NCBI RefSeq assembly: GCF_009389715.1
Contig: NC_052400.1
Location: 248,001-312,000 of the forward strand
Direction of reading: 5' to 3'
Length of the DNA stretch: 64,000 nucleotides
From: Phoenix dactylifera
Lineage: Eukaryota > Streptophyta > Magnoliopsida > Arecales > Arecaceae
The first letter of the stretch is position 1; every line of letters begins with the position of its first letter. Below the pieces are notes generated by a model that worked only from the letters and a program-made list of their open reading frames with translations, made no database searches and was not told the DNA's origin. Both the position numbers and the translations under genes were made by a program. Of the stretch, positions 19,121 to 57,372 are shown one piece after another.

Positions 19121-19935
19121 CGCCGGCTGGCAGCAAAATTGGTGGTGAACTGCCTGCCGAGCTGCTCGAAAGAGGATACCGTGCTCGGCTTTAGTCCGGA
19201 AAACCAAAGCCGAGCTGTCCCTCGGAGGGTCGCTGGGAAGGCCTTGCAGAGCACGGCCTCCGAGGACCCTTGCAGTGTCATAAGAGCTCGGTAGCTTTCC
19301 AAATGGTCGAGGGGGTCGGTAGTTTCGCTGTAGGGCTCCACTTGAGGCATCTTGAACCTCGGAGGGACCGGCTCGTCCTCGATTTGGCGGGAGAAGGGGG
19401 ACTTGGTGGTAAATTCAAAATCCCCCTCGTGTCTTGCACTCCTGCTGTAGAGCGCTTCAATCTGGCGCTCCAGGTTCTCGACTTTTCTATCGAGCTCCCC
19501 AACCCGGAGAATTGTCACCGTAGTTTGCTCCGGCTCACGGCGGTCCGGGGCCGACTCGGCTTCAGAGAGCTGGGGTCTTCTGTTTAGACTTCCCCCCGGC
19601 AGCTCTCTCTGGGGGGACACTCGCTCTTCGTTGTTAGCCCTAGAAGAGCCATGAAGGTTCTGGCCTTGGAGAATCGGGCCGTTCGGAGGAAGCTCCGGCG
19701 GGATCTGGGCCTGTGGGGGGAGCGTAGGTAAGGCTTCCTCACGCCAAAGACCTTGGACGGCGGCGGCCAAGGCCTGGACTTGCTGCACCAGGGCGTTGAA
19801 CTGTTCCGGCTGAATCTGAGAAACCGGATCAGCCGGGGAAGGCAAATTCTGGACAGAGTTTCCAGGACTCTGCGGGGGACGCCGGGAAGCGTTGGAGGCT
19901 CCCTTACTTCTCAACTTCAGCCCGAACTCTTTCAT
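19121..19935 (-). pseudogene. gypsy gag, N-terminal and capsid part
   Basis: The ATG at 19,935 opens a frame with KLRSKGASNASR, QNLPSPADP, LVQQVQALAAAVQGL, a proline-rich linker, a coiled-coil-like LDRKVENLERQIEAL, and the capsid block YSETTDPLDHLESYRALM...FSGLKP...FTTNF typical of plant Ty3/gypsy gag. The first six residues (MKEFGL) come from non-element DNA joined to gag. The frame stays open past the join with RT but there reads RT sequence in the wrong frame, so gag is C-terminally truncated and lacks a zinc knuckle. Confidence 0.8.
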
Positions 19936-19939
19936 TAGC

Positions 19940-20285
19940 GCACGGATGGTGGCAGTGCTAGCTTATAAGACCCATCAAAGTAGGCCATAAGAATGTTTTA
20001 TTATAAAAAACCTGCTCTCCATTGAGACCATGCTAACATATAATTCCTACTATATATTTGGCCATGCCCCAAAATTAATTATCTATATATTGATTTCTTC
20101 GAAAATCACATAGCTAACCGGCAGCTTAAGCCATTAATTGGTAAGGTTATAGAATAAGAAAAAAGGAATGGGATGGGGCATTCATCGTACAGTACTTACA
20201 CTAAAAAATTAGTTAGTGTCGAGAGACTAGGCTTTTCATTAAAGTAGAAGATAAAATTTCATCGTCGTAAGGGAAGGCCTTGGTC
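19940..20285. other. Left-arm flank, nothing recognised
   Basis: AT-rich DNA between gag and the trnD-like fragment, mirrored at about 56,310-56,660. Confidence 0.4.
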
Positions 20286-20291
20286 AATCAA

Positions 20292-20365
20292 CTCACTGTA
20301 GTTCAATCGGTAAGAGCACCGCCTTATCAAGGTGGAAAGCTGCGGGTTTCGGTGCTATACAGGAG
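20292..20365 (+). pseudogene. trnD-GUC: Plastid-type trnD-like relic
   Basis: TGTAGTTCAATCGG, AGAGCACCGCC and AAGCTGCGGGTT follow the D-arm, anticodon stem and T-arm of organellar (plastid-type) tRNA-Asp. The anticodon loop reads TTATCAA where GTC is expected, and the acceptor stem does not pair, so it is a relic. The mirror copy is at 56,232-56,305. Confidence 0.55.
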
Positions 20366-20420
20366 AATAATACATTCAACAAAAAAAAAACGTCGACCCT
20401 CGCAACGAATCCACGTGCCT

Positions 20421-20630
20421 CGACAAAAGCTTTATCTTCTTTACGATTGTCCAAATCCAGAGAGAGATCACGATTCTATGGCAAGAAGTATCACGACAGA
20501 AGCTTATCTTCTTTACGATTGTCCAGATCCATCTCGAGGTGTAGCGGGTAGGTGGAGTTAAGCCTCCGATATAGCCTCGCCCGAGAGAGAGAGAGAGAGA
20601 GATCACGATTCCATGGCAAGAAGAAAACAA
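20421..20630. repeat. Imperfect direct duplication
   Basis: TATCTTCTTTACGATTGTCC and GATCACGATTC followed by ATGGCAAGAAG each occur twice, in the same order. The right arm has the same duplication but lacks about 20 bp near 20,560-20,580. Origin unknown. Confidence 0.6.
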
Positions 20631-21651
20631 AGAAACAAGAATCTATGACACAAGCCCGGTAGAAAGGAACATTTCATATTATTACTTAAATATTTTTGCA
20701 TCTATGCCTGTCTCCACTGTATTTTTATAGAGAATCCTAAAAAGATCAATATCGACATATATAGCCTGTTGGTGCCAATCCAACCCACGACCCGGAGTTT
20801 ATAAGATTTTCCAAGAACCTGTGCGCCATTGATTGATATTCTCTATCAAGCAATTGTATCCAAATGAGACCATTCTATCCATGAAAGAAGCAATGAAATG
20901 GAATCAATACGCTTGAAGTAACTGCATGAAGGGGAAGAGCTTGTGTGAAAAGAATGCCTCGAGAAATTTGTTTCCCTGCTTGGGTTTGTACAGTGACAAC
21001 CGATCAAGGGGTCCATATGCACATATTAACAATGTTAAAAGGACACAATAGATAAAATAGTTATTTATGGATATATAGTAAGTATGTACATACATATGTA
21101 TTTATCTGAGAGATTCCAAAGATGCCCTATTTTTAACTATTTTATAGTAATATCATGCTTGATGAACATCTCAAATAATAAAGTCCATGTTACCAATCCA
21201 CAAAGCCAGACAAAAGTGAATAGTGCTTGTGTCCAACATAGATATAATACGAAGAAGGAAACAAAAACTGATAAGAGGAATTAAACTAGGAAAAACATGG
21301 TTTTTACCCTCCTTTTACCTCAAAAAAAAAAAGGAAAATTGATATTGCTTTTATTTGGGAAAAACATATTTATTTACATAATCCAGGAGAAAGGAACATG
21401 CATAATCCAGCAAAATGAAACATGTTTTAACTTGCACCAATGGTGCATTGCTTATATTGCAACTGCCCGCTATTGAGAACCAACTGCTGTATGCAAACGA
21501 GTATTGCACCAAAGCAACTACTGAATACTGTTCGACGATGATGATGTACTCAACCTTTACTTGTGTCCCAGATGTGTGCCGACTTTCATGAAACACAACC
21601 TGTTATGGAGTCATCATTCTGGACATTAATGTGAATGATAGTCTCAAAGCA

Positions 21652-24600
21652 TCAGTAAAGTCTGATTCTAGTTGCTATCTGGCTCTGGCAAATTGGGCAG
21701 ACCTGCAAGCTTTCTCCACACTTATGGCAAGTCTGCAATAAAAAAAATATTATCAGTGCAGATTAAGTATCGTTGGAAGAAAAAAGAAGGAAATCTACTG
21801 CATACCTGATGCCCACACCCAAATGCGAGATTCTTAGCTTGCCACAAGCAAATGGGACAAATCTGTTAACAGAAAAAGAAATATTTTTGGCATCCGTGAA
21901 TTAAAACTTTATATTAACATTGACATTATCAATATGCTTTACACCGAAGACACGGTTCCCTCAGATATAGCAATAACTACAACCACATGAAAATCCATAC
22001 CCAATACAGCAAACTCAGAAGTTTTGAAGTGATCTGCTCATCACAAGCCTTATAAAATAACAGGTCAGCACTCAGCATATGGACCAAAATGTAAATCAAT
22101 TTATTTACTTGTTTCTCTTCTAGAGAACTCTCCGATGGAATGGCTGGCGCCCTTTTATGAACTCCAGCACCTTGCTCCGAGCTGCTTGAGTGCGAGTATT
22201 TTGGATTTGAATATGCTGAACCATGACTTTTAATTGGTGGAGGGAGAGAAGTCATTTCCGGTGTTCCTCTTCGTTTACTGGGGAACAAAAAGGAAATAAC
22301 TTGAACAGCAGAAACATTGTTTAATCAAAATCATGAATCAGAAACATCATCCTAATACCCCAAAAGTTGAAGGTCTATTGTTGCTTTATATTGTGATGGG
22401 ATTTCCATCAATGCTGCAAGCGCGAACTCTGTCTCCTTTCTGCTGTTGGAAATATTTCTAGACATGATCTCTGTAAAGTTCACAAACTGCATAAAACCAA
22501 ATCACAAAATGACCACTCTTCATATGCATATGTAGTATCATACTTATGTATGTTCAGTTTGTAACCTGGAAATTATCAAATGCTCGTGAAGGTATATTAT
22601 CATCAAATTCTCTCATCATGTCCCATGGTCCATCACCAACTCCAACTAGAACTATTGACAGCGGGTAATCACTACCAAGTACCAACATAAGAGGTGCAAG
22701 TCAGAATAACTAACAGTAAATATATGATTAAAAAGCAAATAAAAAGGCTTTACTATCTCAAATGTTGTCAATCACCTAGCTTTGACTATGGCATTCATAG
22801 TATCTCGCTCTTGTGAACTCAGCTGGCCGTGAATTGTGTCAACACTGCGTGTTACCTAAGGTCAAATTAGTATGAGGAGTATTAGATCCCCAAGAAAATA
22901 GACATGTTGGAAGCAGGACAAAATACTATAAACTGAGATGTGGAAAAAGAAAACAGACAAATTAGTGCTCTTTTATTGCATAATATAAAAATCTACGAAT
23001 AGGGAAAATAACAACGAAAAATTGAAAAGAGAAGCATCTTGAATAGCTGACCTGTCCATCTGCTATTATAAGAAGAACATGATATTGGCCACCACTATTA
23101 TCTACAATGCCGATGGCTGTTTCAATTATTGGTGCAAAGGATGTTGGTCCTGTCAAGAAGGTCCAGAGTCATGACCAAATAGGAACTTCACAATGATCTA
23201 TATGAGGTTGACAAAAATATAGCATGTAAGTAAGAGCATCGTACAGACCAGCTAATCGAAGATGTGGAACTAATTCTTTATATCTTTGTAGTGCTTCCTC
23301 AAAGCCATTACATGGTCGGTTCTCTGGATAAAAACTGAATACCTCCTGATCATGTGTGGATGCTGCAATATAGAAACAATAACAAGAATCCCCAGACAGT
23401 TTTATAAAGGTAGCCTTGAAATTTGTAGCAAAATTAAGTAGACCTTTTTCTACAAGCTAGAGCGACACTAACCATCTCCGAATCCAAAGCAAGGAATAAG
23501 ATTATCCTCATCAAAAGCAGATAGAGTTCTTCCAATAATTGATAATGCCTGCTCATATGGGTTTGGAGTATGCCCAATGTCATGCAAACATCGGCGGTTG
23601 AAAGAAACTCTGCCTGGTAACAGTGTAGGATTCATGAATGAGGATTTTAAAAGTTTCTAAGGCTAAACTTTACACAACCTTTTCTAAGATATGAATACCT
23701 AGCAGAAATACTGAGGTGGAAGTAATCAGCATTACTTATAATTCTCTTTCTGTTTTACATTCTCTCCCATATATTATCCAAAAATCTAGAGCATGCAACA
23801 GGAATAGTCCATTCAGGTACTAGTTCAAACAAGCATTATATAGATATTTAACTAGTGGAAAAAATCAGCTAATGCCACAGATAAAGTAGGATCCTAGACC
23901 TAATATAAAAATCTGTTGGTTGCTTCAAAAACTTGTTATAAAAAAATTGTAACTGTAACATAATAAAACATGAAGGAAAAACATCATCCCCCCCCCCCCC
24001 CCCCCCCCCCACAACACACACACACACACACCCCCCATCACAGCATCACAGCACCTGTTTTGCATAAATTCCATATCAGCTAAGCATTAAGCATCAAGAT
24101 GTTACATTAAAAATAATGAGCTTTTCCGCTTATGAGATCTCCCAGATTTGGCCCACAAAGAAGTAAAAGCATTTCATAAGTTGATTTTCTGTGCCTGTTA
24201 ATAATTACATGGTGCAGAACCACAAGCTGATAACAAAAAATTTAAAGGCAGTAGATCACAAGTTTATGAAATAAAACCTGTCCATTCGTTGCTCTTTGTA
24301 AAATCAATTCCCACAATCAGATTTGAAGATTCAAGACCAGCTTGTGAAAGAGCTTCTGTTACCTAGGTTTAAAAACAATATAAGGTCAATAAAGTATGAC
24401 AGTTTATATTGATAGATAGCTAATGTTTAGTGGAGATTGATGAATGAATGTAGTTAACACAGATTATTTGAGACATAGAAGTGAGATGATAAGTAAGACC
24501 ACCTTAAATAAGTAACATTACATCCCCGCCATTAACATACAGTAAAGCAGATGATTTTAATACAGAAGTGAAAGTCATTAAATGAAACTACCTGAGAAAA

Positions 24601-25624
24601 AGCATCATTATATGCTTCCCATTGACATTCAGTATAAGAAAATTTATTTGTAATATTAAAGTTGAGACTGAATAAGCCTTGTATGATCTTTGATATAGTT
24701 CTTCTGGGTGGCTGAGACTTCTTTTATTTTTCCTTCTTTCCTTTTCAGACTCTTCCTCAGTATCATGATCTTAATATATGCACATTTACTTGATCAAAAA
24801 AGATTTTGGTTGTTTAAAAATGAAACATCCCCATTGGAGGTAGTATGTCCTATCCCATGCAAAACCCCATTTTGTCAAACATCAACAATTTGCATCCCGT
24901 GTCCTGCTCCATCATGGGTGTTACCTATCAACCTTGTACAGGACAGTTTAGTTAGCTTTAATGATGTAAAGAAGGAACGCCTCATACCATCTATTTGCAG
25001 TTAATTTTATGGATCATATTTCATCATTGATTCCTGTGCCATAGATTACTTCATATCAAGCCTTCTCTAGTCTTGCTACAACTATGAACTTCAGCAAGAA
25101 ACTAAAGCCACCTCCCTGCTTGAAAACCTAAAAATTCCTTTCATATTAACAAGGGACAGAATTAATTTTTCTAACCAATCCTGCGAGTAACCTAGAGTAA
25201 GCCTAGACCTTGATTACGTTAACTTGATATCTAGCAGTCATTTTTTCAGCATTTTCAGCTTCAAAAACTTCTCAACACCGCATATTTAAGCATGGTGTTT
25301 TATACTTTCTGACACAGAAGAGCACATAATAGCTAAATCATTCTTTCCCATTGGAATTTGAAAATTCATAGAATAGAAGTACAATAAACGCATCAAAAAG
25401 AGATATTTAAAATATGATGAAGAGTAGGGGGGTTGGAATACCTGGTCAAGCGAGTGGTAATCATCACCTATTTTTGTATACTTTCTCTGCACCCTCTCTA
25501 CTGTTCTAGGCTGTAGATTATTCCCTGGGTAAGGAGAGTACCTCGAAGTGCTTCGTGAAGGCGGAGTCCCATAATTATGTGAATAACGATGGGGGCTCCT
25601 AGATTTCGACCATTTTCCTCCCAT
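21652..25624 (-). CDS. RGLG: RGLG-type RING E3 ubiquitin ligase, left-arm copy
   Basis: Mirror copy of the 11-exon gene at 51,015-54,963, starting ATG at 25,624 (first coding exon 25,442-25,624) and ending TGA at 21,652. It encodes [10 protein letters not shown] (Gly2 myristoylation candidate), a copine/VWA domain and a C-terminal RING. The coding exons I compared look unchanged relative to the right copy, with sense and splice sites preserved; it is 24 bp longer genomically, partly from a C-homopolymer in intron 2. Family members build K63-linked chains with a UBC13-type E2 and act in hormone and stress signalling. Whether both copies are expressed cannot be told from sequence. Confidence 0.9.
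23988..24032. repeat. Poly-C plus CA tract in RGLG intron 2
   Basis: More than 20 C followed by CA repeats. The right-arm equivalent is a shorter G-run after a GT tract (52,602-52,637). Homopolymers like this are also frequent sites of sequencing error. Confidence 0.8.
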
Positions 25625-26204
25625 AATCACACTTCCAATCTATAGCAAACTTCTTAACACACAGCTCTCCGAAGAAAACAGCCCTCAACCACCAAATAAA
25701 CCCTCTGCTGAAGACCAAAACCAAACATGAATCAACCTCAATTTCCGGCAGAAATATATGAAGATGCAAACCCAAATTCTAGGCGATAACAAACCAAAAT
25801 TCAAATTCCTTTATTTCAAGAAAAGCAAGCATGAAAACACCCAAAATCCTCACCAACAATAACTGAAGGTATAAACATCCAACTCAGAATTCTTGAAGCT
25901 CAAACAAATTTAGATTGTGGAAAAGCGGATCAGAAGATTAGTCAGAACATATACTTGTACAAAAGCCAAACCTAATTTTTCTTTTCCCAACAGAATAATT
26001 AAAATACTCTCAAAAAATCGAACTTTCCAAAGACCCACACGACCAAATCACTAAACCAACCCCATTAAATATTATAATCCAACGAAAATCATTGAAAGCT
26101 TCCTACATTGATAAGATCTCCACCAAAAGCAACAGTAGAAAATGATAAAAATGAACAAATCAAGCAAGAAAGAGATGGAATAACGCTAGATTCCCACTGA
26201 AACA

Positions 26205-26590
26205 TTATGCGGAGAGATTAACGGGGGAGAGGGAGTACCAATTACGTCGGGGAGGAGGAGAAGCGTACCGTTTCGGGCGGAGAAGAAGATGGCGGTTAGC
26301 AATCGAATCCCCCCGTGACTCCGAGAGGACCCCGATCTTGGTGACCAGCGAGGAAGTTTCCTCGTTAACGTACTTACTTTTCACGACACCCAACGCCATT
26401 ATTGGTGTATTAAATGCAAGATGTGGGCCCAGGTGTCAGAGAGGGTGTGATGTTTGGTGCGCTGAAAGTATGAGACTTATCTGGACCGCTCCCAAGCCAG
26501 CTGCGATTCTCCCATGTAGTCCACGTGGCGATCATTGGCCATGAGGTGCACTCTTGTATTTTTTTTTCTTCTTTAATGATGGTAATTTAT
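26205..26590 (-). promoter_or_regulatory. 5' leader and upstream region of left RGLG copy
   Basis: A short ATG frame of 64 codons (from 26,399 on the minus strand) lies upstream of the RGLG start, separated by a probable leader intron; the right arm has the same frame with one residue changed (A to D). It may be an upstream ORF or part of a non-coding first exon. GC content rises here as expected near a transcription start. Confidence 0.4.
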
Positions 26591-26600
26591 TAATCCTAAG

Positions 26601-26747
26601 TTTGGATTTGATAAAATAGATTCAGATTATAAACATATCAACCTATCTAAACTTGTTTACTAAATAAATTAGATTCAAATTTAGATATTCAAGGTGGAGA
26701 AATATCCGAGGGGGTTTCATGTAGAGAAGACTTGTTCATAAAATTGG
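26601..26747. other. Left-arm-specific 147-bp segment
   Basis: Present only in the left arm; the right arm carries a gypsy fragment plus hAT-like repeat instead at 49,503-50,038. The segment itself is AT-rich and unremarkable, and may be the ancestral sequence. Confidence 0.7.
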
Positions 26748-27540
26748 GGCTTGAGGACAAGTTCCGACAGAATTCCCTGCATGCACAGAGCTGGATATCA
26801 ACCTGGAAGCCCCTTCAGCCCATTGGCTCTTTCATGGTAATTCAATCCCATTAGATGAAAGACGACTGAAGAAAAGTCATAATATTTTGTATCAAAAAAA
26901 AAAGTCAGAATATCTGAATACCACGTCAAAGTCTATATGCCAAGTGTCATCAATTGCTTAAATCGTTATAGATAGAAGAGAACTGGCAATGTTGATGGAA
27001 TTTTCCAATCTGAATGCCTTATGTTATATGAATCTATGGGTGGCTGAGACTGCATGAACCATGCTTGAGGACTAATTTCTTGTGGTTTTTGAAAGAGTCA
27101 GCAGCAGTAGGTTTCATTGTTCATTTTCGTGGCTCGAGACCGAGCAAAAGGAATTTCGTGTTATACTTCCTTTTGACCGCTTAAGAAATGTGTGATTGTT
27201 AGAAAGTCACAATTGAGCTTGAATTCTCTGCAATTTAGCTTCTCAATACGTAGATAGTTGACTAATTAACTCGAGGACACCAAATTCTTGCTGTATTTTA
27301 GAATTATAGCTGCCTTTAGGTGTGGGAGAGGTTTGCTAAATAAACAATCAAGCACTGAAAGTTCATAGGTCCCCATGGACTGGTAGCTCGTTCCGACGAA
27401 TCTATAGACTAAATCATGCCATAGAAAAAATCAGTTTGTGGTCCACATATTGGCATGGGCATGCCTTATATCACAATTATCACATGCATGCCCCCTGCTG
27501 CATCTTTTATGCCTAACTTTCTCCAATTTGCTATTATTAC

Positions 27541-27829
27541 TGTTGCAGGCCTTCCGACCCGACAACAGCATAGTCCCCACAAACTGACGGCAGATAACGG
27601 CACGCGTCCCCCATGAGGTATTGTCCGCTCTGGGACTCCGGCCCGCGTGTCCAGCGCTACTGGGGGAATTTTTTCCTGCCCGCGCGTCCAGCGCTGACGG
27701 AGGGATACCCGCACGGTTTTGCCCCACAAAAAGCGCCTGGTGAGAAAAGAGGTTTTCCCTCCTTATAAGGCACAGACTTTTCTGCTGCCTAATCGGTATG
27801 GGACTAAATTCGGCACCACACCCACAACA
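27541..27829 (+). mobile_element. Candidate 289-bp solo LTR (left arm)
   Basis: Begins TGTTGCAGG and ends CACCCACAACA, with a TTATAAGG TATA-like box at about 27,764 and GC-rich inner repeats (GCGCGTCCAGCGCT appears twice with variation). Flanking pentamers ATTAC (27,536-27,540) and ATTGC (27,830-27,834) differ by one base, compatible with an old target duplication. Mirror copy at 48,420-48,708. Confidence 0.5.
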
Positions 27830-27877
27830 ATTGCCTTGTTGAGTTGATGTGCAACACTTACCTTTAGTATGGATATA

Positions 27878-28930
27878 TCCAAAAAAAAGTTAAAAAATAG
27901 CAAGTCTCAGAGTGCCCTAGGCAACTTCCTTTTCACAAGGCCTTCTAAGTGATCGGCTATATACGAGGCCGTCCAATCCGCGGCCTCATTAACTTCTCTG
28001 TAAGCATGCTCGGCCTAGAAAGCAACATCGCCACTAACGATGGCCCAAATGTCCAGGAGCAGGGGTGGCACCCAATGACCCAAAATAGATCTGGATTGGG
28101 TGATGCATCAAACACTGGGGGATGATAGCATCTAACTCATTTGCACTACCAATGTCCCAATAGATGAGCAAGCGTTTATGGAGATTTATTTTTGCTTCAC
28201 TTTGCAGCATACGTGGCTCTTCACTGATCTTAGTTTTCGAAGGATATTAGGAAAGTGGGAAGGTTCTGTCATCGATGCTCAATCTAATAAAGCAAGTTAA
28301 AGGAGTCGTTTGGTTTATTTTGTTATTTAGACTTTTGTCAACTCAAGGAATAAGATAAGACCCAAGAATATTTGGCGGGTGGCAATTGCAGCTAGTATCA
28401 AGAATGGAGAATTAACCCCAAGGACAATTTGATAAGTGAAAGATCATGGAAAAAGTCGTAATTTGATTAAGAATATCAATATATAAAGAGTTTTCAATTT
28501 TCACTTGTGGAAGTCATTTTTGATTCACCCCGGAGTCAAAATTGTTGGTGGCAATAGGAAGCCACCATGGTATCTGATCCAGTTGGGTAGGCCTCCTGAA
28601 TGAACGCTATCACTAAATTGTCTCCACAATTTTTTCCTTTTTTTAATTTGAAAGGAGTTAAAACAGACCAGGTTTATTGGAAGGGCCCTGGAAAAGGAGA
28701 TTAGGGTGCCAAAAAATAATAAGAAGAAGAACAAACAAAAAGCCCTGTTCGACCAGCACACTATGTATTTCAAGGTGATCGGGGCAATATATAAAATCAA
28801 TGTAATACACGATGGAGTCTTGCACATCACAAATCCAATCAGAAATATCATGATCAACTTATAGTCATTCTAAATGGGCATGTGCAATAGTGTCATTTAA
28901 TCCACATAAACTATAGGCTGGATCAGCTCT
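27878..28930. other. Triplicated intergenic segment, no gene seen
   Basis: Present three times in the window (left arm, right arm, third copy). Open frames here, such as 28,525-28,857 minus, persist in all copies only because the copies are young. No domain recognised. Confidence 0.5.
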
Positions 28931-28935
28931 AATAC

Positions 28936-29994
28936 TGTGAAGGCCCGATCTAGGCCCAATCCACACGATCGGCCCGACCTGTGGTTTGACCTCTGGAGTA
29001 GCCAAGCACATGTTACACGTGTGACAAGAATGGAAAACTCACAGAGGAAGTCTTCTTCTCCTTTGGTGATTTCGGCTAGGAGTCAGAGTTCTAGAGCCGT
29101 CGGGACCCTAGGGCTTCTCTATAAAGGGAGAGCTCTCTCCCTCCATACCTATCCATTCCAAATAATCCTCCTCTTTCCCTCTCCTTCTTTCTCCTTTTTT
29201 TCTATTAAGTTCGTGGCTGCTCGTCATTATGCTTGCCAGAAATCGGGACCACCAAACACCACCTGAGCTGAGGTAACGCTCTGATCTTCTTCTCCTTTCA
29301 CTCTTCTTCTTCCCGCGACCCGAAATCACGGCCGCCGATCAAAAAATCAGCCAGAAATCAACTGAATAAGGATCCCTATTTTGCCTCTTTTTTTTCTTTT
29401 TTCGGCCATGCCTATCGTCGGCGTTCATCGCCAAAGCCCCCGGTCACTTCCCAATATTGGTCCATGGTTGGAACAAGACCCCAGCCGCAAGCGAGCGGCT
29501 AGGATTTGAATACATTGAGGCAAGAAATCATCTATGTCCAGCCCTGCTTTTGGTTTGATTTTGGACGGCCAACCGCCACCGCACCTCATCGGACCACCAT
29601 GGTTAGCCACTAGTCAAAGTTCCTCTGTTTGCTAAAAAAGAAGAAAAGTTCTCTTTCTCTCTCGTTTCCTTCCTTCTCTCTTCTCCCTCTTTCTCTCTCT
29701 AGGAGACCTATGGATCCTAGTATAGGATCCTGTCGACCTGGCCCACAAATCCAAGTTGACACCTATAAAGAGCCTTAATCTACCCTGGTGCCCAGGCAGC
29801 CTGCCAGACTGATCACCCCAGTCCTATTAAGTGCCCATGAAACTCAGTATTAATGAACCCTATAAATTGGCCTTAGCCCTAATCTAGTCTGTGCCTCATG
29901 ATTCATTAATCGAGTTGCTTAGACCTGACCTAACTGGGTCGTCATTATCCAGCCGATGTGGGACTAAACATGCCCACACTTGTTCTCACACACA
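28936..29994 (+). repeat. Candidate LTR-like repeat (left arm), unclassified
   Basis: Begins TGTGAAGGCCCGATC and ends ATGTGGGACTAAACATG...CACACACA, contains a CTATAAAGGGAG TATA-like box at about 29,119 and CT-rich tracts; this is the texture of a plant solo LTR. Flanking pentamers do not match convincingly, so it is only a candidate. Mirror at 46,255-47,313 and third copy from 58,428. Confidence 0.35.
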
Positions 29995-30725
29995 GTAACA
30001 CCAAAAGATATGAAGCAGTGGAGCATATTTTTTTTAAAGTTCTGAGATTAGACCCCCAAAGCATTTTCCATGGTGATAACTAAGTCTAGAAACAATCAGC
30101 CGAGATTTCATGCGGCAACATGAAAAATACTAAAGATTTTCAATGTAGATTCAGTGCTGCACATACCCAAAACTACAATAGGACAATAGCTAAAACTCTT
30201 CTGTTTGTTTTCCCCATTTTTAGGCAGCATAGAAATCAGAAGTTTGCAAAGCAAATGCCAAAGCACCACACAGTACAATGAAAGTTGACATATGTTAAAC
30301 TAGCATTATTCCCATTTAACAGAAAAAGCAAACCAACATGGAAATTCTAGCGATCCATAAATTTTAAAAAAAATTATTGTCTAACTGCAAAAGGATGGTA
30401 AACATACACAATTGTGTACAGCAACTAAAAGATTACAGCAAATGGAAGACTAACATCAAAAAATTGTTTGCAGATGTCATCTGCAGTCCTGGTTATGTGA
30501 CAGAAAAAAAGTACAATCATCTTAACCAACAGATAGGAAGGTTGAATTTTTGCATTGAAAAGACGTCACAGCAGCTTACAGCTATTTTAAGGAAACCTCC
30601 TCGTTTTTTCGTAGCACAAAGCACAAACCAACAATTAGACATTAGATATACTCCAACAAGATGGGACCATGGAAAGTGATGACTGCCACTTAAAGAAAAA
30701 CTTTGTATCAGCTCCAAGATAACAT
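29995..30725. other. 3' flank of MRPL46 exon 6 copy
   Basis: Downstream sequence of MRPL46 in reverse orientation; no additional gene recognised. Confidence 0.5.
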
Positions 30726-30869
30726 TTAACTAATAATCATCTTGTTGAAAAAGTCAGCTTGCTCTGGAAAGTAGTCCATTAATTCATCCTTGGTCACCCA
30801 TACATAGTCCTGACACTTTCCAATATGGAGTTTGCTGGTACCAATTACTTGTGATTTGAAAAAGAATCT
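30726..30869 (-). pseudogene. MRPL46: Orphan copy of MRPL46 last exon (left arm)
   Basis: Identical in encoded protein to exon 6 at 45,380-45,523: [20 protein letters not shown] through FFNKMIIS and a TAA, with its CAG acceptor. The left-arm homology stops within intron 5, so exons 1-5 are absent on this strand nearby. It is a duplicated exon without a promoter or start, therefore a gene fragment. Confidence 0.9.
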
Positions 30870-31712
30870 CTGTTAAGAAGAGAGATGGAAAAAGGTTACG
30901 GAAAGTAACCAACCAAATATACCATTTTGGAATGTTTCTATATCAAAATAATACACAAAGTGGGGGTACATGGAGGGCAGGTTGATACATAGACTAGTTC
31001 AACATAAAAGCAGCAAGCTCCATCACATCTTTAATTAGGATTTATTTGCAAATCCTGTTCCACTATTTATTCCAATCAAATATCATGTGCTTCATCATTA
31101 TGCTCATAAATAAATGCTCAACTTCTCAAAACTTAATTGACTGATGCCAATATTTCTGATACCCTCACTGTGAATTTGCTAGCTTAATGTTACGCAATTC
31201 CAATGGAAGGTCGAAGGTGCTAGCATCCTTCTTGGATGCATAGATATCATATCATTGTGGTCATATCCACACAATTGACAATGGCTGTACGAGGCAATAT
31301 AATGGAGGAGAAAGATCAGGGCAGGCCGTTGATCCTGCAATCTTAAAATTTCACTGAAAATCACCTTCTAAGACATATTCTAGTATCTTGAAAATCTCAG
31401 GATTGCAGGACAGATGGACCTCCCCCAATCCCTCCAACTTCTCCATCACTCTTAGCCAACTCTAAATAATGGAAGAAATATCATGGATACAGTATTAAAA
31501 CATCCAAATAAGCCCTATCAATCCTAATTGGTAGTGATTGCAAACAAGATACACAGTCGAACATTAGAAGTCGGTTCATTTCCCTATACAACTAGATAGA
31601 TGACATTTTAGAGGATAATGATGATAAAACCCTTTGCTATTGCAGTATATTAATTAGTATGCCAAGAGAAACCATGCAACATCGAACATGTCTTTTGGAA
31701 CTTCTCAACAAC

Positions 31713-31713
<1 letters not shown>

Positions 31714-31758
<45 letters not shown>
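31714..31758. repeat. (TA)n microsatellite, left copy
   Basis: About 45 bp of alternating TA in the MRPL46 intron 5 segment; the right-arm copy is about 53 bp and the third copy about 91 bp. Confidence 0.9.
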
Positions 31759-31760
<2 letters not shown>

Positions 31761-33439
31761 AGATCGGCATGGCTCTAGCTTCCTACACCATAAAATCCTT
31801 GCTATTATGTCAGGTGGTTGAAAGAAATCAGCTCCAAATATAACAAATGATGTACCACACTGCAAAAGGAGGAATAGGCCTAAATCAGGCCTATCCAAGA
31901 GGCTCAAGAAGATCTTTGAACTCCCCTTTTTCTATTAGCAGAATCGAAGATCAGTGTTTTTTCCCCGAAGTTAAGACATCAGAATCTAGGCGAACCAATC
32001 AGCCCAGTCAATGAATACTTACCATTTTATTGTCTTTTTGGAGGCAGTTTAAATTGCAGTTTGCTGTGATTGAAATAATTATCCAGCAATAGATTAGGGG
32101 TGAAATTTAAAATCTGATACTCTCATTTGTTACACATATCCTGTGAATAGAACTTGGGAATTGGTGTTATACACAGTCGTCGATCTTAAATAGCACTCCC
32201 ATCCACCATTGGTTTTATGATCGCGATGCCAATAAATCACAATCCAAAATTATTACTTACGTTGTGTTAACTAGAGATCAATTATTTCTTCAAGAATCAT
32301 AATTGCCCTGTTTGATCCCAGGTGCAACAATGTTTTGTAGAAAAATGACACAAAGGGAAGAGTCAGACAAAGAGAGAAACAGAGTGGCTGTTAAATAAGG
32401 AAAATAGAAACAGCAAAAAATTATGAAAGGCATGAAGAGGAATGACTTCTGCTATTTGAGAAAGAAGAAAATTAAGCCAGGAAAAGTAAAGAATTTGAAA
32501 GAGATGCGAAAGAAAAGAAAGAATGTGTGAATGAAGAATAAGAGAAAAAAAAACTAGGTGGTCTGCTGATGTTACCAGGAAGGAAGAAAGGACAAAAATG
32601 GAGAAGCGAGACAGTAGCAAGAAAAAGAAGAAAAGTGATGAAAATGGATGCAGAGGTCAGAGAAGGGCAAAAAGAAGATACAAGGCTAAAGAGAAGTGAT
32701 ACAAAATCCTCTACACTAAAAAGATTTTATTCTCAATATGCAATATCAAATTAGATGCTTCGGATTTCCCCATGAATCATGGGCAGGGATGTAGGACAAG
32801 GATATGACATGATATGGATAGCCAATACAACAAATCTTGAAAAAAATAAGATAGGACATGTCTAGAATACGCCAACGAATAGATATGTACTTCATATATA
32901 CATACATATACACACACATACACATACATAGATACGTATGCAAAAGAGCATCTATAACACATAGTAGGCCAAAAGAGAAACCACTATACCTAACTTAAAT
33001 AAAAATAATTTGATTATAGATAGAGCAGTATCTATTAAAGTAAAATCGAGACCAAGATAGATCTATGCATTCAATTGTGCTGAGATAGGCATTTCTGAGG
33101 CAAAAAATAACACATAGTTCATATTTAGATGCAGTTTTTAAAGAGGAGAGATAGAAAAATAGTTTTTATATAAATAATATTTTATATTTAATAAAAAAGA
33201 AAAATTCATATGGGGCATTAGAAAATCCAACCTATTAGTATAGAATAAATTGATTTGTGCTATCTATAATATATGTAATAAGCTTAATTCCATGATTTAA
33301 GCCTTAGATATGGGTTGTTTGCTATTTGTTATCTTCAGCTAATTACATAAAGCATAGAAAAATATTTATGCTTTTTTTATTATATAGATATTTGGTTGAA
33401 ACAATGAAATGTTTCAGACAGTCCATGGTGTCTTGCAAG

Positions 33440-44482: not shown

Positions 44483-44543
<61 letters not shown>

Positions 44544-45523
44544 AGAAGTTCCAAAAGACATGTTCGATGTTGCATGGTTTCTCTTGGCATACTAATTAAT
44601 ATACTGCAATAGCAAAGGGTTTTATCATCATTATCCTCTAAAATGTCATCTATCTAGTTGTATAGGGAAATGAACCGACTTCTAATGTTCGACTGTGTAT
44701 CTTGTTTGCAATCACTACCAATTAGGATTGATAGGGCTTATTTGGATGTTTTAATACTGTATCCATGATATTTCTTCCATTATTTAGAGTTGGCTAAGAG
44801 TGATGGAGAAGTTGGAGGGATTGGGGGAGGTCCATCTGTCCTGCAATCCTGGGATTTTCAAGATACTAGAATATGTCTTAGAAGGTGATTTTCAGTGAAA
44901 TTTTAAGATTGCAGGATCAACGGCCTGCCCTGATCTTTCTCCTCCATTATATTGCCTCGTACAGCCATTGTCAATTGTGTGGATATGACCACAATGATAT
45001 GATATCTATGCATCCAAGAAGGATGCTAGCACCTTCGACCTTCCATTGGAATTGCGTAACATTAAGCTAGCAAATTCACAGTGAGGGTATCAGAAATATT
45101 GGCATCAGTCAATTAAGTTTTGAGAAGTTGAGCATTTATTTATGAGCATAATGATGAAGCACATGATATTTGATTGGAATAAATAGTGGAACAGGATTTG
45201 CAAATAAATCCTAATTAAAGATGTGATGGAGCTTGCTGCTTTTATGTTGAACTAGTCTATGTATCAACCTGCCCTCCATGTACCCCCACTTTGCGTATTA
45301 TTTTGATATAGAAACATTCCAAAATGGTATATTTGGTTGGTTACTTTCCGTAACCTTTTTCCATCTCTCTTCTTAACAGAGATTCTTTTTCAAATCACAA
45401 GTAATTGGTACCAGCAAACTCCATATTGGAAAGTGTCAGGACTATGTATGGGTGACCAAGGATGAATTAATGGACTACTTTCCAGAGCAAGCTGACTTTT
45501 TCAACAAGATGATTATTAGTTAA
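34886..45523 (+). CDS. MRPL46: Mitochondrial ribosomal protein mL46 (MRPL46), six exons
   Basis: A large-subunit mitoribosome protein with a NUDIX-like fold. Exons: 34,886-35,043, 35,286-35,351, 40,144-40,218, 41,778-41,907, 42,071-42,196, 45,380-45,523; together 699 nt, 232 residues. The N-terminus MQRAAASLLLRTLRSRGF is an Arg/Ser-rich mitochondrial presequence. Family blocks seen: [107 protein letters not shown]. Splice phases agree at every join, but intron 2 ends TTCTTG|GGG with no AG: the expected acceptor A appears to be missing. The next AG (40,150-40,151) would give a TGA at once. The right inverted arm begins inside intron 5. Confidence 0.9.
35352..40143 (+). other. MRPL46 intron 2, 4.8 kb
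   Basis: Starts GTAAAG. Its 3' end reads ATTTTCTTG where an AG is required. It contains the 360-bp palindrome-rich element at 39,552-39,911; the rest is AT-rich with no recognised gene. Confidence 0.75.
39552..39911. mobile_element. CCGGTACC-rich palindromic element with 9-bp target duplication
   Basis: 360 bp dominated by CCGGTACC, GGCCGG and GTACCGG words on both strands, broken by an A-run and a TTTTTTATCC patch. TGGCATACG occurs directly on both sides (39,543-39,551 and 39,912-39,920). The ends share GCCGTACCGG in inverted orientation. A 9-bp duplication is typical of Mutator-like DNA elements, hAT being 8 bp. No transposase is present. Confidence 0.65.
42197..45379 (+). other. MRPL46 intron 5, spanning the right-arm boundary
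   Basis: GTACCAG donor to AACAG acceptor, 3.2 kb. From 43,270 it is part of the inverted duplication; 42,197-43,269 recurs only in the third copy. A GA microsatellite lies near 42,565-42,585 and a TA microsatellite at 44,484-44,536. Confidence 0.75.
44484..44536. repeat. (TA)n microsatellite, right copy
   Basis: About 53 bp of alternating AT, mirror of 31,714-31,758. Confidence 0.9.
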
Positions 45524-47313: not shown

Positions 47314-47319
47314 GTATTA

Positions 47320-48370: not shown

Positions 48371-48419
48371 ATATATCCATACTAAAGGTAAGTGTTGCAC
48401 ATCAACTCAACAAGGCAAT

Positions 48420-49500: not shown

Positions 49501-49659
49501 CCGTTTCTTCTGTTTTACAGGCCTGCAGGTCGGTTTCACCTGGAGTCGGTGGACCATGACCTCAGGGTCGATTCCTGGTATGTCGGCGGGCGACCAGGCG
49601 AAGACATCAATGTTGGCCCGGAGGAATTCGGTCAGGCGCTTCCTTTCGCGGGGGCTGGC
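49501..49659 (-). mobile_element. gypsy RT fragment inserted in right arm
   Basis: About 159 bp nearly identical to 18,960-19,118 of the gypsy remnant: on the minus strand RERKRL, the DVFAW-containing segment and VIVHRLQVKPTCRPVKQKK. Four or so base differences separate the two. It starts in a shared AGCCC and ends at GGGGCTGGC, the same point where gag is joined to RT at about 19,118 in the left element. Confidence 0.85.
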
Positions 49660-50038
49660 CAACAGTTAAACGGGTTAAACAGTTTAAACGGGTCAGACAT
49701 CTAAAACCCGATCCAACCTGTTTAACCTGCCCAACCCGATCTGTTTAGACCCGTTTAACCTGTTTAGACCTGTTTAGACCCGTTTAACTTGTTTAGACCT
49801 GTTTAACCTGTTTAACCCGTTTAAACTGTTTAGACCTGTTTAACCTGCCCAACAGTTAAACGGGTTAAACAGTTTAAACGGGTCAGACATCTAAAACCCG
49901 TATCCGACCCAATTAATAAACAGGTTAAACGGGTCGACCTGTTTACGACCCAAACCTGTTTAGGCCAAACCCAAACCTGTTTATGGCGGGTCGAACACGG
50001 GTCGGATTGGCGGGTCGGGTCATATTTTGCCACCCCTA
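49660..50038. mobile_element. hAT-like element rich in GTTTAA/TTAAAC words, one end missing
   Basis: Repeated words GTTTAAAC, CCCGTTTAA and CCTGTTTAGACC fill the segment. A 51-bp unit starting CAACAGTTAAACGGG at 49,660 recurs at 49,850. The right end CATATTTTGCCACCCCTA is the reverse complement of TAGGGGTGGCAAAATATG, a terminal sequence type of plant hAT non-autonomous elements. The matching left terminus is absent, replaced by the RT fragment. Confidence 0.6.
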
Positions 50039-50040
50039 CT

Positions 50041-51014: not shown

Positions 51015-54000
51015 ATGGGAGGAAAATGGTCGAAATCTAGGAGCCCCCATCGTTATTCACATAATTATGGGACTCCGCCTTCACGAAGCACTTCGAGGTA
51101 CTCTCCTTACCCAGGGAATAATCTACAGCCTAGAACAGTAGAGAGGGTGCAGAGAAAGTATACAAAAATAGGTGATGATTACCACTCGCTTGACCAGGTA
51201 TTCCAGCCCCCCTACTCTTCATCATATTTTAAATATCTCTTTTTGATGCGTTTATTGTACTTCTATTCTATGAATTTTCAAATTCCAATGGGAAAGAATG
51301 ATTTAGCTATTATGTGCTCTTCTGTGTCAGAAAGTATAAAACACCATGCTTAAATATGCGGTGTTGAGAAGTTTTTGAAGCTGAAAATGCTGAAAAAATG
51401 ACTGCTAGATATCAAGTTAACGTAATCAAGGTCTAGGCTTACTCTAGGTTACTCGCAGGATTGGTTAGAAAAATTAATTCTGTCCCTTGTTAATATGAAA
51501 GGAATTTTTAGGTTTTCAAGCAGGGAGGTGGCTTTAGTTTCTTGCTGAAGTTCATAGTTGTAGCAAGACTAGAGAAGGCTTGATATGAAGTAATCTATGG
51601 CACAGGAATCAATGATGAAATATGATCCATAAAATTAACCGCAAATAGATGGTATGAGGCGTTCCTTCTTTACATCATTAAAGCTAACTAAACTGTCCTG
51701 TACAAGGTTGATAGGTAACACCCATGATGGAGCAGGACACGGGATGCAAATTGTTGATGTTTGACAAAATGGGGTTTTGCATGGGATAGGACATACTACC
51801 TCCAATGGGGATGTTTCATTTTTAAACAACCAAAATCATTTTTGATCAAGTAAATGTGCATATATTAAGATCATGATACTGAGGAAGAGTCTGAAAAGGA
51901 AAGAAGGAAAAATAAAAGAAGTCTCAGCCACCCAGAAGAACTATATCAAAGATAGCACATACAAGGCTTATTCAGTCTCAACTTTAATATTACAAATAAA
52001 TTTTCTTATACTGAATGTCAATGGGAAGCATATAATGATGCTTTTTCTCAGGTAGTTTCATTTAATGACTTTCACTTCTGTATTAAAATCATCTGCTTTA
52101 CTGTATGTTAATGGCGGGGATGTAATGTTACTTATTTAAGGTGGTCTTACTTATCATCTCACTTCTATGTCTCAAATAATCTGTGTTAACTACATTCATT
52201 CATCAATCTCCACTAAACATTAGCTATCTATCAATATAAACTGTCATACTTTATTGACCTTATATTGTTTTTAAACCTAGGTAACAGAAGCTCTTTCACA
52301 AGCTGGTCTTGAATCTTCAAATCTGATTGTGGGAATTGATTTTACAAAGAGCAACGAATGGACAGGTTTTATTTCATAAACTTGTGATCTCCTGCCTTTA
52401 AATTTTTTGTTATCAGCTTGTGGTTCTGCACCATGTAATTATTAACGGGCACAGAAAATCAACTTATGAAATGCTTTTACTTCTTTGTGGGCCAAATCTG
52501 GGAGATCTCATAAGCGGAAAAGCTCATTATTTTTAATGTAACATCTTGATGCTTAATGCTTAGCTGATATGGAATTTATGCAAAACAGGTGCTGTGATGG
52601 GGTGTGTGTGTGTGTGTGTTGGGGGGGGGGGGGGGGGATGATGTTTTTCCTTCATGTTTTATAGTTACAATTTTTTTATAACAAGTTTTTGAAGCAACCA
52701 ACAGATTTTTATATTAGGTCTAGGATCCTACTTTATCTGTGGCATTAGCTGATTTTTTCCACTAGTTAAATATCTATATAATGCTTGTTTGAACTAGTAC
52801 CTGAATGGACTATTCCTGTTGCATGCTCTAGATTTTTGGATAATATATGGGAGAGAATGTAAAACAGAAAGAGAATTATAAGTAATGCTGATTACTTCCA
52901 CCTCAGTATTTCTGCTAGGTATTCATATCTTAGAAAAGGTTGTGTAAAGTTTAGCCTTAGAAACTTTTAAAATCCTCATTCATGAATCCTACACTGTTAC
53001 CAGGCAGAGTTTCTTTCAACCGCCGATGTTTGCATGACATTGGGCATACTCCAAACCCATATGAGCAGGCATTATCAATTATTGGAAGAACTCTATCTGC
53101 TTTTGATGAGGATAATCTTATTCCTTGCTTTGGATTCGGAGATGGTTAGTGTCGCTCTAGCTTGTAGAAAAAGGTCTACTTAATTTTGCTACAAATTTCA
53201 AGGCTACTTTTATAAAACTGTCTGGGGATTCTTGTTATTGTTTCTATATTGCAGCATCCACACATGATCAGGAGGTATTCAGTTTTTATCCAGAGAACCG
53301 ACCATGTAATGGCTTTGAGGAAGCACTACAAAGGTATAAAGAATTAGTTCCACATCTTCGATTAGCTGGTCTGTACGATGCTCTTACTTACATGCTATAT
53401 TTTTGTCAACCTCATATAGATCATTGTGAAGTTCCTATTTGGTCATGACTCTGGACCTTCTTGACAGGACCAACATCCTTTGCACCAATAATTGAAACAG
53501 CCATCGGCATTGTAGATAATAGTGGTGGCCAATATCATGTTCTTCTTATAATAGCAGATGGACAGGTCAGCTATTCAAGATGCTTCTCTTTTCAATTTTT
53601 CGTTGTTATTTTCCCTATTCGTAGATTTTTATATTATGCAATAAAAGAGCACTAATTTGTCTGTTTTCTTTTTCCACATCTCAGTTTATAGTATTTTGTC
53701 CAGCTTCCAACATGTCTATTTTCTTGGGGATCTGATACTCATACTAATTTGACCTTAGGTAACACGCAGTGTTGACACAATTCACGGCCAGCTGAGTTCA
53801 CAAGAGCGAGATACTATGAATGCCATAGTCAAAGCTAGGTGATTGACAACATTTGAGATAGTAAAGCCTTTTTATTTGCTTTTTAATCATATATTTACTG
53901 TTAGTTATTCTGACTTGCACCTCTTATGTTGGTACTTGGTAGTGATTACCCGCTGTCAATAGTTCTAGTTGGAGTTGGTGATGGACCATGGGACATGATG

Positions 54001-54963
54001 AGAGAATTTGATGATAATATACCTTCACGAGCATTTGATAATTTCCAGGTTACAAACTGAACATACATAAGTATGATACTACATATGCATATGAAGAGTG
54101 GTCATTTTGTGATTTGGTTTTATGCAGTTTGTGAACTTTACAGAGATCATGTCTAGAAATATTTCCAACAGCAGAAAGGAGACAGAGTTCGCGCTTGCAG
54201 CATTGATGGAAATCCCATCACAATATAAAGCAACAATAGACCTTCAACTTTTGGGGTATTAGGATGATGTTTCTGATTCATGATTTTGATTAAACAATGT
54301 TTCTGCTGTTCAAGTTATTTCCTTTTTGTTCCCCAGTAAACGAAGAGGAACACCGGAAATGACTTCTCTCCCTCCACCAATTAAAAGTCATGGTTCAGCA
54401 TATTCAAATCCAAAATACTCGCACTCAAGCAGCTCGGAGCAAGGTGCTGGAGTTCATAAAAGGGCGCCAGCCATTCCATCGGAGAGTTCTCTAGAAGAGA
54501 AACAAGTAAATAAATTGATTTACATTTTGGTCCATATGCTGAGTGCTGACCTGTTATTTTATAAGGCTTGTGATGAGCAGATCACTTCAAAACTTCTGAG
54601 TTTGCTGTATTGGGTATGGATTTTCATGTGGTTGTAGTTATTGCTATATCTGAGGGAACCGTGTCTTCGGTGTAAAGCATATTGATAATGTCAATGTTAA
54701 TATAAAGTTTTAATTCACGGATGCCAAAAATATTTCTTTTTCTGTTAACAGATTTGTCCCATTTGCTTGTGGCAAGCTAAGAATCTCGCATTTGGGTGTG
54801 GGCATCAGGTATGCAGTAGATTTCCTTCTTTTTTCTTCCAACGATACTTAATCTGCACTGATAATATTTTTTTTTATTGCAGACTTGCCATAAGTGTGGA
54901 GAAAGCTTGCAGGTCTGCCCAATTTGCCAGAGCCAGATAGCAACTAGAATCAGACTTTACTGA
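51015..54963 (+). CDS. RGLG: RGLG-type RING E3 ubiquitin ligase, right-arm copy
   Basis: Eleven coding exons: 51,015-51,197, 52,281-52,365, 53,004-53,144, 53,255-53,368, 53,468-53,565, 53,759-53,838, 53,943-54,048, 54,128-54,255, 54,337-54,505, 54,752-54,808, 54,883-54,963; 1,242 nt, 413 residues, all phases consistent. MGG at the start gives a Gly2 myristoylation site, so plasma-membrane attachment is likely. A copine/VWA domain follows (about 61-330) with a MIDAS-like DFTKS at 81-85, [36 protein letters not shown] and [16 protein letters not shown]. The C-terminal C3HC4 RING has C370, C373, C384, H386, C389, C392, C399 and C402. I chose the ATG at 51,015 because MGG is the family start. A paralogue or allele sits in the left arm. 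Confidence 0.93.
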
Positions 54964-54999
54964 TGCTTTGAGACTATCATTCACATTAATGTCCAGAAT

Positions 55000-55960
55000 G
55001 ATGACTCCATAACAGGTTGTGTTTCATGAAAGTCGGCACACATCTGGGACACAAGTAAAGGTTGAGTACATCATCATCGTCGAACAGTATTCAGTAGTTG
55101 CTTTGGTGCAATACTCGTTTGCATACAGCAGTTGGTTCTCAATAGCGGGCAGTTGCAATATAAGCAATGCACCATTGGTGCAAGTTAAAACATGTTTCAT
55201 TTTGCTGGATTATGCATGTTCCTTTCTCCTGGATTATGTAAATAAATATGTTTTTCCCAAATAAAAGCAATATCAATTTTCCTTTTTTTTTTTGAGGTAA
55301 AAGGAGGGTAAAAACCATGTTTTTCCTAGTTTAATTCCTCTTATCAGTTTTTGTTTCCTTCTTCGTATTATATCTATGTTGGACACAAGCACTATTCACT
55401 TTTGTCTGGCTTTGTGGATTGGTAACATGGACTTTATTATTTGAGATGTTCATCAAGCATGATATTACTATAAAATAGTTAAAAATAGGGCATCTTTGGA
55501 ATCTCTCAGATAAATACATATGTATGTACATACTTACTATATATCCATAAATAACTATTTTATCTATTGTGTCCTTTTAACATTGTTAATATGTGCATAT
55601 GGACCCCTTGATCGGTTGTCACTGTACAAACCCAAGCAGGGAAACAAATTTCTCGAGGCATTCTTTTCACACAAGCTCTTCCCCTTCATGCAGTTACTTC
55701 AAGCGTATTGATTCCATTTCATTGCTTCTTTCATGGATAGAATGGTCTCATTTGGATACAATTGCTTGATAGAGAATATCAATCAATGGCGCACAGGTTC
55801 TTGGAAAATCTTATAAACTCCGGGTCGTGGGTTGGATTGGCACCAACAGGCTATATATGTCGATATTGATCTTTTTAGGATTCTCTATAAAAATACAGTG
55901 GAGACAGGCATAGATGCAAAAATATTTAAGTAATAATATGAAATGTTCCTTTCTACCGGG
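55000..55960. other. RGLG 3' flank, right arm
   Basis: Probable 3' UTR and intergenic DNA, mirror of about 20,650-21,600; no further gene. Confidence 0.4.
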
Positions 55961-56231
55961 CTTGTGTCATAGATTCTTGTTTCTTTGTTTTCTTCTTGCC
56001 ATGGAATCGTGATCTCTCTCTCTCTCTCTCTCTCTCGGGCGACACCTACCCGCTACACCTCGAGATGGATCTGGACAATCGTAAAGAAGATAAGCTTCTG
56101 TCGTGATACTTCTTGCCATAGAATCGTGATCTCTCTCTGGATTTGGACAATCGTAAAGAAGATAAAGCTTTTGTCGAGGCACGTGGATTCGTTGCGAGGG
56201 TCGACGTTTTTTTTTTGTTGAATGTATTATT

Positions 56232-56305
56232 CTCCTGTATAGCACCGAAACCCGCAGCTTTCCACCTTGATAAGGCGGTGCTCTTACCGATTGAACTACA
56301 GTGAG
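56232..56305 (-). pseudogene. trnD-GUC: Plastid-type trnD-like relic, right-arm copy
   Basis: Reverse-complement copy of 20,292-20,365 with the same altered anticodon loop. Confidence 0.55.
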
Positions 56306-56661
56306 TTGATTGACCAAGGCCTTCCCTTACGACGATGAAATTTTATCTCCTACTTTAATGAAAAGCCTAGTCTCTCGACACTAACTAATTTTTTAGTGTA
56401 AGTACTGTACGATGAATGCCCCATCCCATTCCTTTTTTCTTATTCTATAACCTTACCAATTAATGGCTTAAGCTGCCGGTTAGCTATGTGATTTTCGAAG
56501 AAATCAATATATAGATAATTAATTTTGGGGCATGGCCAAATATATAGTAGGAATTATATGTTAGCATGGTCTCAATGGAGAGCATGTTTTTTATAATAAA
56601 ACATTCTTATGGTCTACTTTGATGGGTCTTATAAGCTAGCACTGCCACCATCCATGCGCTA

Positions 56662-57372
56662 ATGAAAGAGTTCGGACTGAAGTTGAGAAGTAAGGGAGCC
56701 TCCAACGCTTCCCGGCGTTCCCCGCAGAGTCCTGAAAACTCTGTCCAGAATTTGCCTTCCCCGGCTGATCCGGTTCCTCAGATTCAGCCGGAACAGTTCA
56801 ACGCCCTGGTGCAGCAAGTCCAGGCCTTGGCCGCCGCCGTCCAAGGTCTTTGGCGTGAGGAAGCCTTACCTACGCTCCCCCCGCAGGCCCAGATCCCACC
56901 GGAGCTTCCTCCGAACGGCCCGATTCTCCAAGGCCAGAACCTTCATGGCTCTTCTAGGGCTAACAACGAAGAGCGAGTGTCCCCCCAGAGAGAGCTGCCG
57001 GGGGGAAGTCTAAACAGAAGACCCCAGCTCTCCGAAGCCGAGTCGGCCCGGACCGCCGTGAGCCGGAGCAAACTACGGTGACAATTCCCCGGGTTGGGGA
57101 GCTCGATAGAAAAGTCGAGAACCTGGAGCGCCAGATTGAAGCGCTCTACAGCAGGAGTGCAAGACACGAGGGGGATTTTGAATTTACCACCAAGTCCCCC
57201 TTCTCCCGCCAAATCGAGGACGAGCCGGTCCCTCCGAGGTTCAAGATGCCTCAAGTGGAGCCCTACAGCGGAACTACCGACCCCCTCGACCATTTGGAAA
57301 GCTACCGAGCTCTTATGACACTGCAAGGGTCCTCGGAGGCCGTGCTCTGCAAGGCCCTCCCAGCGACCCTCC
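56662..57372 (+). pseudogene. gypsy gag fragment ending the right arm
   Basis: The ATG at 56,662 gives MKEFGLKLRSKGASNASR and continues like the left gag. A frame break occurs near 57,050 (after LSEAESA, where the left copy continues in frame), then the capsid block YSGTTDPLDHLESYRALM resumes in another frame. The sequence stops at CCCTCC (57,372), mid-capsid, where it is fused to the third duplicated copy. Confidence 0.85.

Follow-up and report, generated by a model that had tools for sequence, protein, structure and literature searches.

At one locus of the date palm, Phoenix dactylifera, two long arms of nearly identical DNA lie in inverted orientation, each with a gene of the RGLG E3 ligase type, and the question is what kind of rearrangement produced them. 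We analysed a window of 64,000 nucleotides (C9:248001-312000, C9 being contig NC_052400.1, in an assembly of 773,078,369 bases in 2,391 contigs) and added 20 kb of flanking sequence on the left and 50 kb on the right, giving a joined sequence of 134 kb. A first-pass annotation had described the two arms and a 10.3-kb spacer, leaving the choice between a very young segmental duplication and a misassembly of haplotypes. BLASTN comparison of the window with itself confirmed the arms (19224-26601 against 57372-50038, 98.9% identity; 26747-32974 against 49502-43270, 99.4%), with borders within one base of those first given (19224 rather than 19223). The arm-specific changes that had been listed are present as well: an indel of 22 bp at 20555 (20 bp near 20,560 in the annotation), the replacement at 49.5-50.0 kb and differing lengths of AT repeats.

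Copy number and orientation of the repeated segments

The same comparison revealed a third copy, here called C. It starts at the outer edge of the right arm: 57370-64000 is inverted relative to 48371-41785 (99.0% identity), and 57370-62511 repeats 27878-32974 in direct orientation (98.6%). With the flanking sequence added, C can be followed for another 8.7 kb past the end of the window, to 72712 in window numbering (C9:320712), and 33118-48371 matches 72712-57370, so that C mirrors the inverted middle copy B' (B for short) as far as 33118. The arms thus exist as annotated, but the unique spacer between them does not, since from 33118 on it recurs in the third copy; likewise the right arm edge at 57372 was placed correctly but is a junction with a partial third copy and no edge to unique DNA. 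A plain two-arm inverted duplication is ruled out by the third copy.

Along the chromosome, copy A (+) runs forward to 32974 and is followed by a patch of 143 bp, B' (-) then runs backward to the equivalent of 19224, and C (+) runs forward from the equivalent of 27878 and continues into the flank. The first duplicated segment (DUP1) is present in A and B', the triplicated segment (TRP) in A, B' and C and the second duplicated segment (DUP2) in B' and C, a copy number of 2-3-2. DUP1 and DUP2, with two copies each, measure 8,654 and 10,201 bp, and TRP, with three, measures 5,097 bp (5,142 in C); the net gain from the rearrangement is 39,738 bp. Novel junctions are found at two places only, 32974-33118 (with the inserted patch) and 57370-57372, and the spacing between inverted copies is about 9 kb or more. 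Matches of many kb at 99% identity do not arise by chance. As assembled, the locus has the pattern known from human genetics as DUP-TRP/INV-DUP (duplication, inverted triplication, duplication), with 2-3-2 copy number and an inverted centre. The three copies, their order and orientation, the junction sequences with a 120-bp patch, the private substitutions and the gene content are all read directly in the assembly. The features of the locus are as follows, in window numbering:

19224 to 27877, plus strand: DUP1 segment of copy A, 8.65 kb, with RGLG (minus strand) and part of a Gypsy-like gag fragment; second copy in B' (57372 down to 48372)
27878 to 32974, plus strand: TRP segment of copy A, 5.10 kb, present in three copies (A, B', C)
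32975 to 33117, plus strand: junction 1, 143-bp patch; partner near 72712
33118 to 57372, minus strand: B', inverted middle copy, 24.3 kb, comprising the spacer from 33118 on and the right arm
57370 to 57372: junction 2, B' to C, 3 bp microhomology TCC/GGA
57370 to 64000, plus strand: C, third copy, continuing to 72712 past the window
21655 to 25624, minus strand: RGLG-type E3 ligase gene, copy A, 11 coding segments found
51015 to 54960, plus strand: RGLG-type E3 ligase gene, copy B
34886 to 45520, plus strand: mL46 (mitochondrial ribosomal protein) gene, copy B
60222 to 70943, minus strand: mL46 gene, copy C
30729 to 30869, minus strand: last coding segment of mL46, copy A
49502 to 50038: B-specific replacement of A 26601-26747, about 0.54 kb

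Sequence of the two junctions

At junction 1 AGGCCAAAA is followed by 5 bases (32975-32979), for which no origin was found, then by a patch of 120 bp, an element of about 25 bases and TTCA. The 120 bp at 32980-33099 are the reverse complement of 73984-73860 with one 5-bp gap and no mismatches, and their template lies 1.15 kb beyond the partner breakpoint. In all genome searches the best 40 candidates per probe were scored. Among the best 40 of 383 candidates for the junction probe, the patch matched, besides itself, only C9:321860-321984, making an origin from a common repeat unlikely. The element of about 25 nt (33098-33122, overlapping both neighbours) resembles the sequence after the A breakpoint in B' and C, with one mismatch and one 2-bp gap. 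Among random 56-mers drawn from the locus, including the junction and the homologous copies, 2 of 5,000 in forward and 3 of 5,000 in reverse orientation attained its score. A 25-base hop back to the starting template is regarded as no more than probable. TTCA (33118-33121) is common to junction 1 and its partner near 72712, which lies at the edge of a dispersed repeat.

Two further explanations for this region were considered. A transposon insertion as cause of the A edge at 32974 is disfavoured, B and C being collinear there and the patch being a local copy. The stretch of 1,147 bases that separates 72712 from the patch template might be a later insertion in C, but neither a target duplication nor terminal repeats were seen by eye; outside C9 this region has matches on the first 116 probe bases only, which are the edge repeat (best 40 of 94 candidates).

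Junction 2 (57370-57372) joins a fragment that we take from its translation to be gag-like, of Gypsy type, to the sequence at 27878, with three common bases (TCC/GGA). The fragment is dispersed in the genome. A junction probe of 801 bases found its full match once and its halves at the expected other places (best 40 of 1,923 candidates). Among random joins within the locus (n=50,000), microhomology of at least 3 bp was seen in 6.0% and of at least 4 bp in 2.0%. A BLASTN comparison between partner sites, taking 1.5 kb to either side of each (3 kb in all), gave no match at either junction (E up to 1e-3). About 50 bp from the partner site 27878 there is a fragment (27540-27829) of a dispersed repeat whose copies at other places in the genome are spaced by about 390 bp.

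Divergence and gene content of the copies

A three-way alignment of the TRP segment contains 31 private substitution columns in 5,142 alignment columns (A 11, B 6, C 14), no column with three different bases and 3 indels, two of them of a single base. C-to-T or G-to-A changes make up 5 of 6 private substitutions in B, 11 of 14 in C and 5 of 11 in A, the last of which suggests that at some A-private sites the derived base is the one common to B and C. Substitutions number 53 for A/B (112 raw, of which 59 in the non-homologous replaced block were dropped), 48 in 15,229 for B/C and 25 in about 5.1 kb for A/C, corresponding to K values of 0.0039, 0.0032 and 0.0049. Similar pairwise divergences, the private counts and the lack of three-base columns are what a roughly simultaneous origin of the copies would give. 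At substitution rates of 2.61e-9 to 1.3e-8 per site per year, the divergence of 0.3-0.5% suggests an age of about 0.1-0.9 million years. Near-identical copies of three probes were found only within this C9 locus, the longest matches elsewhere being pieces of dispersed repeats (up to 374 bases at 96%, 212 bases at 93% and about 300 bases at up to 92%; best 40 candidates for each of the three probes). Both results support the earlier proposal of a very young duplication.

The protein assembled from the coding segments of the gene that we take to be RGLG contains a Copine-type von Willebrand factor A domain (PF07002, 5.2e-70) and a C-terminal RING domain (PF13920, 2.2e-6, 27.8 bits where the cut-off is 27). 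Both arms contain, as annotated, each of the 11 peptide segments searched for, with a single silent difference between A and B in 1,224 bp of coding segments, and RGLG appears intact in two copies. Transcription of copies A (minus) and B (plus) is divergent, and from this layout no read-through hairpin over RGLG would be expected. The second gene was identified by a PDB sequence search as mL46 (6xyw_AI, At1g14620 mL46, 2.1e-105, residues 3-232 of 232); a Pfam search with the protein gave no match. B and C hold 6 of 6 searched segments with one silent difference in 696 bp, and in A the last coding segment was found while the other five searched segments were absent. The acceptor of coding segment 3 (40142-40143) is TG in copy B and AG in copy C. 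Copy B is accordingly predicted to be mis-spliced and may be on its way to a pseudogene, so that mL46 appears intact in C, altered at a splice acceptor in B and reduced to a last-exon fragment in A.

The B-specific replacement at 49502-50038 consists of a presumably pol-like fragment and a dispersed repeat; it stands in place of 147 bp of different sequence in A (26601-26747), which is partly dispersed repeat as well. The pol-like fragment matches an element on C14 at 99% and a local element at 98% (best 40 of 1,594 candidates). The replacement looks like filler-type break repair; either arm may carry the derived version, and the pol-like fragment may or may not be of local origin. A GC-rich minisatellite of CCGGTACCGG-like units, nearly self-complementary, lies at 39500-39950 and in C at about 65884-66101 and carries several B/C indels.

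Outside the rearranged segments, pieces of a direct duplication (83-96% identity, about 17-19 kb apart) were seen at -19763..-10836 and -2355..8146 in window numbering, with a U6 small nuclear RNA gene on each side (L015:3454-3554 in the left flank and 1761-1861 in the window). Open reading frames at 9716-14460 resemble what we take, from translation, to be a phosphofructokinase gene, and at 5169-5849 there is a short tandem array, with a unit of about 148 bp and copies about 88-90% alike.

Origin of the rearrangement

Replication-based template switching is the best reading of the 2-3-2 locus and in our judgement probably the correct one. Synthesis would have run forward to about 32974 and switched to the opposite strand near 73984, where about 120 bases would have been copied before release. 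After a probable re-engagement near the starting template for about 25 bases, a second switch at TTCA near 72712 would have started about 24 kb of backward synthesis to 19224, and a switch at TCC/GGA would have returned it to forward synthesis at 27878 and along the normal chromosome. Point mutations would afterwards have set the copies apart, and some tracts are compatible with gene conversion. This is the simplest account because no more than two long-range switches are needed for every step in copy number and a templated patch is a usual scar of such repair; it also predicts recurrence of the spacer in the third copy past the window end, and the flanking sequence matches that prediction. 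That the event was single, the order of the switches, the enzymes and the existence of the arrangement in a living plant we infer. For a fuller version, in which a naturally retained plant DUP-TRP/INV-DUP of about 10^5 years or older preserves a multi-hop switch record (120 bases out, 25 back, out again) and its copies exchanged sequence by gene conversion, we see an even chance.

Several observations weigh against template switching or against details of it. Two microhomologies of 3-4 bp are only modestly unlikely by chance and weak evidence by themselves. A dispersed repeat family has partly similar letters at the 25-nt element, leaving its status as re-copied DNA ambiguous, and an A/T difference beside TTCA may be a mutation in C. 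The longest substitution-free runs are 2,635 bp for A/B (p 0.0004) and 2,469 bp for B/C (p 0.0095; 20,000 uniform shuffles), and 7 of the 11 A-private substitutions fall within 28478-29229. Gene conversion between the inverted copies would fit this clustering, as would uneven mutation or constraint, and later conversion may have blurred any clock. The arrangement is read from a single assembly, in which an error at this locus is disfavoured but may exist, and a stepwise path with erosion could give the same end product. The substitution-free runs (20249-22882 and 34768-37235) adjoin dense substitution clusters, and B and C show no substitutions over the 1,474 bp adjoining junction 2.

The stepwise path is that of origin-dependent inverted-repeat amplification (ODIRA), in which leading-to-lagging strand switches at short inverted repeats would first produce a full palindromic triplication; end joining or break-induced replication near the palindrome centres would then delete one flank copy and leave 2-3-2. 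DUP-TRP/INV-DUP has been proposed to arise by ODIRA and erosion, with eroded spacers of 1.1-34.9 kb (PMC10766186), and the asymmetries of 8.65 and 10.2 kb fit these proposed spacers, just as junction microhomology with filler fits end joining. The hallmark of unaltered ODIRA, short inverted repeats 40-80 nt apart, is however not found at the junctions, whose ends are offset by 8.65 and 10.2 kb, and the dissimilar surroundings of the partner sites speak against the eroded form as well. The eroded form would also require an extrachromosomal intermediate followed by two deletions, when two switches are otherwise enough. The present sequence cannot separate eroded ODIRA from a one-step origin; we hold the former to be unlikely. 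Separate events, with the inverted duplication preceding an unrelated tandem duplication or the reverse, would account for the somewhat different pair divergences (K 0.0049 for A/C against 0.0032 for B/C) and for the cluster of A-private substitutions. Yet the private counts of 11, 6 and 14 are not clearly unequal (chi-square about 3.2, 2 degrees of freedom) and the clustering fits gene conversion, and we consider such a history very doubtful.

An assembly artefact could consist of haplotypes left unmerged, the other option of the first-pass annotation, or of chimeric reads put together in inverted order; arms 99% alike could indeed be alleles. Each of the three copies has private substitutions, however, which is not expected from two unmerged haplotypes of a diploid without errors (diploidy is assumed here). 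C-to-T or G-to-A changes predominate among the private substitutions of B (5 of 6) and C (11 of 14), only two single-base indels occur in the segment, junction 1 combines microhomology with a templated patch, a repair signature, and the joined 134 kb contain no N. Chimeras from missed adapters fold back with almost no loop, unlike the present layout. A published date palm assembly has 772.3 Mb in 2,706 primary contigs, some of them placed on 18 linkage groups; it was made with FALCON-Unzip from PacBio data with a mean subread length of 11.2 kb and a read N50 of 18.5 kb, and the species is described as highly heterozygous (PMC6794320). If it is the same assembly, many reads are shorter than the 15.3-kb B/C match. 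On balance we judge an artefact quite improbable. A transposon-driven rearrangement by alternative transposition of DNA transposon ends appears scarcely credible: duplications by reversed-ends transposition are described in maize (PMC3744419), junction 2 cuts the dispersed gag-like fragment and a dispersed repeat has its edge at 72712, but no transposon ends or target-site duplications were seen at the junctions by eye, no dedicated search for transposon ends having been made.

Similar structures are known from other systems. In human DUP-TRP/INV-DUP (PLP1, MECP2; PMC4352052, PMC10766186), two direct duplicated segments likewise flank an inverted triplicated one; two junctions give four changes in copy number, and the junctions show short microhomology (a few bases) and additional template switches. 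The present case differs in being a small plant locus (8.7/5.1/10.2 kb) whose copies are 0.3-0.5% diverged and hence no de novo variant. Unlike the inverted-repeat-mediated Jct1 of PLP1 (PMC4352052), the partner sites of the plant junctions share no similarity detected by BLASTN within 1.5 kb on either side, and no pre-existing inverted low-copy repeat such as contains Jct1 in the PLP1/MECP2 subclass was found at them. Inverted triplications by ODIRA (yeast SUL1) are also interstitial with an inverted centre copy (PMC10766186, PMC10766183), but the plant junctions lack closely spaced short inverted repeats and their ends are offset by 8.65 and 10.2 kb. The 120-bp local copy at junction 1 resembles templated insertions at DNA breaks, made by microhomology-mediated break-induced replication (MMBIR) or microhomology-mediated end joining (PMC12426944, PMC8421209), and the 0.54-kb composite patch in B possibly does so too; unlike them, the insert at junction 1 lies at the join of a multi-kb rearrangement. 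A limited literature search, with subscription journals outside its reach, found no earlier plant report of DUP-TRP/INV-DUP.

In summary, the locus is a known kind of rearrangement, young, in a plant. Most work on complex inverted triplications concerns human disease variants; a plant case that is young, small and resolved to the base has junctions short enough for PCR tests and allows one to ask whether such events persist and spread. It also cautions that a description as inverted duplication plus spacer may conceal a third copy. With respect to genes, an E3 ligase gene was duplicated, and a ribosomal protein gene was copied and then apparently damaged in one copy. If the proposed origin is true, a replication error best known from human genomic disorders would also seed gene-copy differences in a plant, without inverted repeats at the breakpoints.

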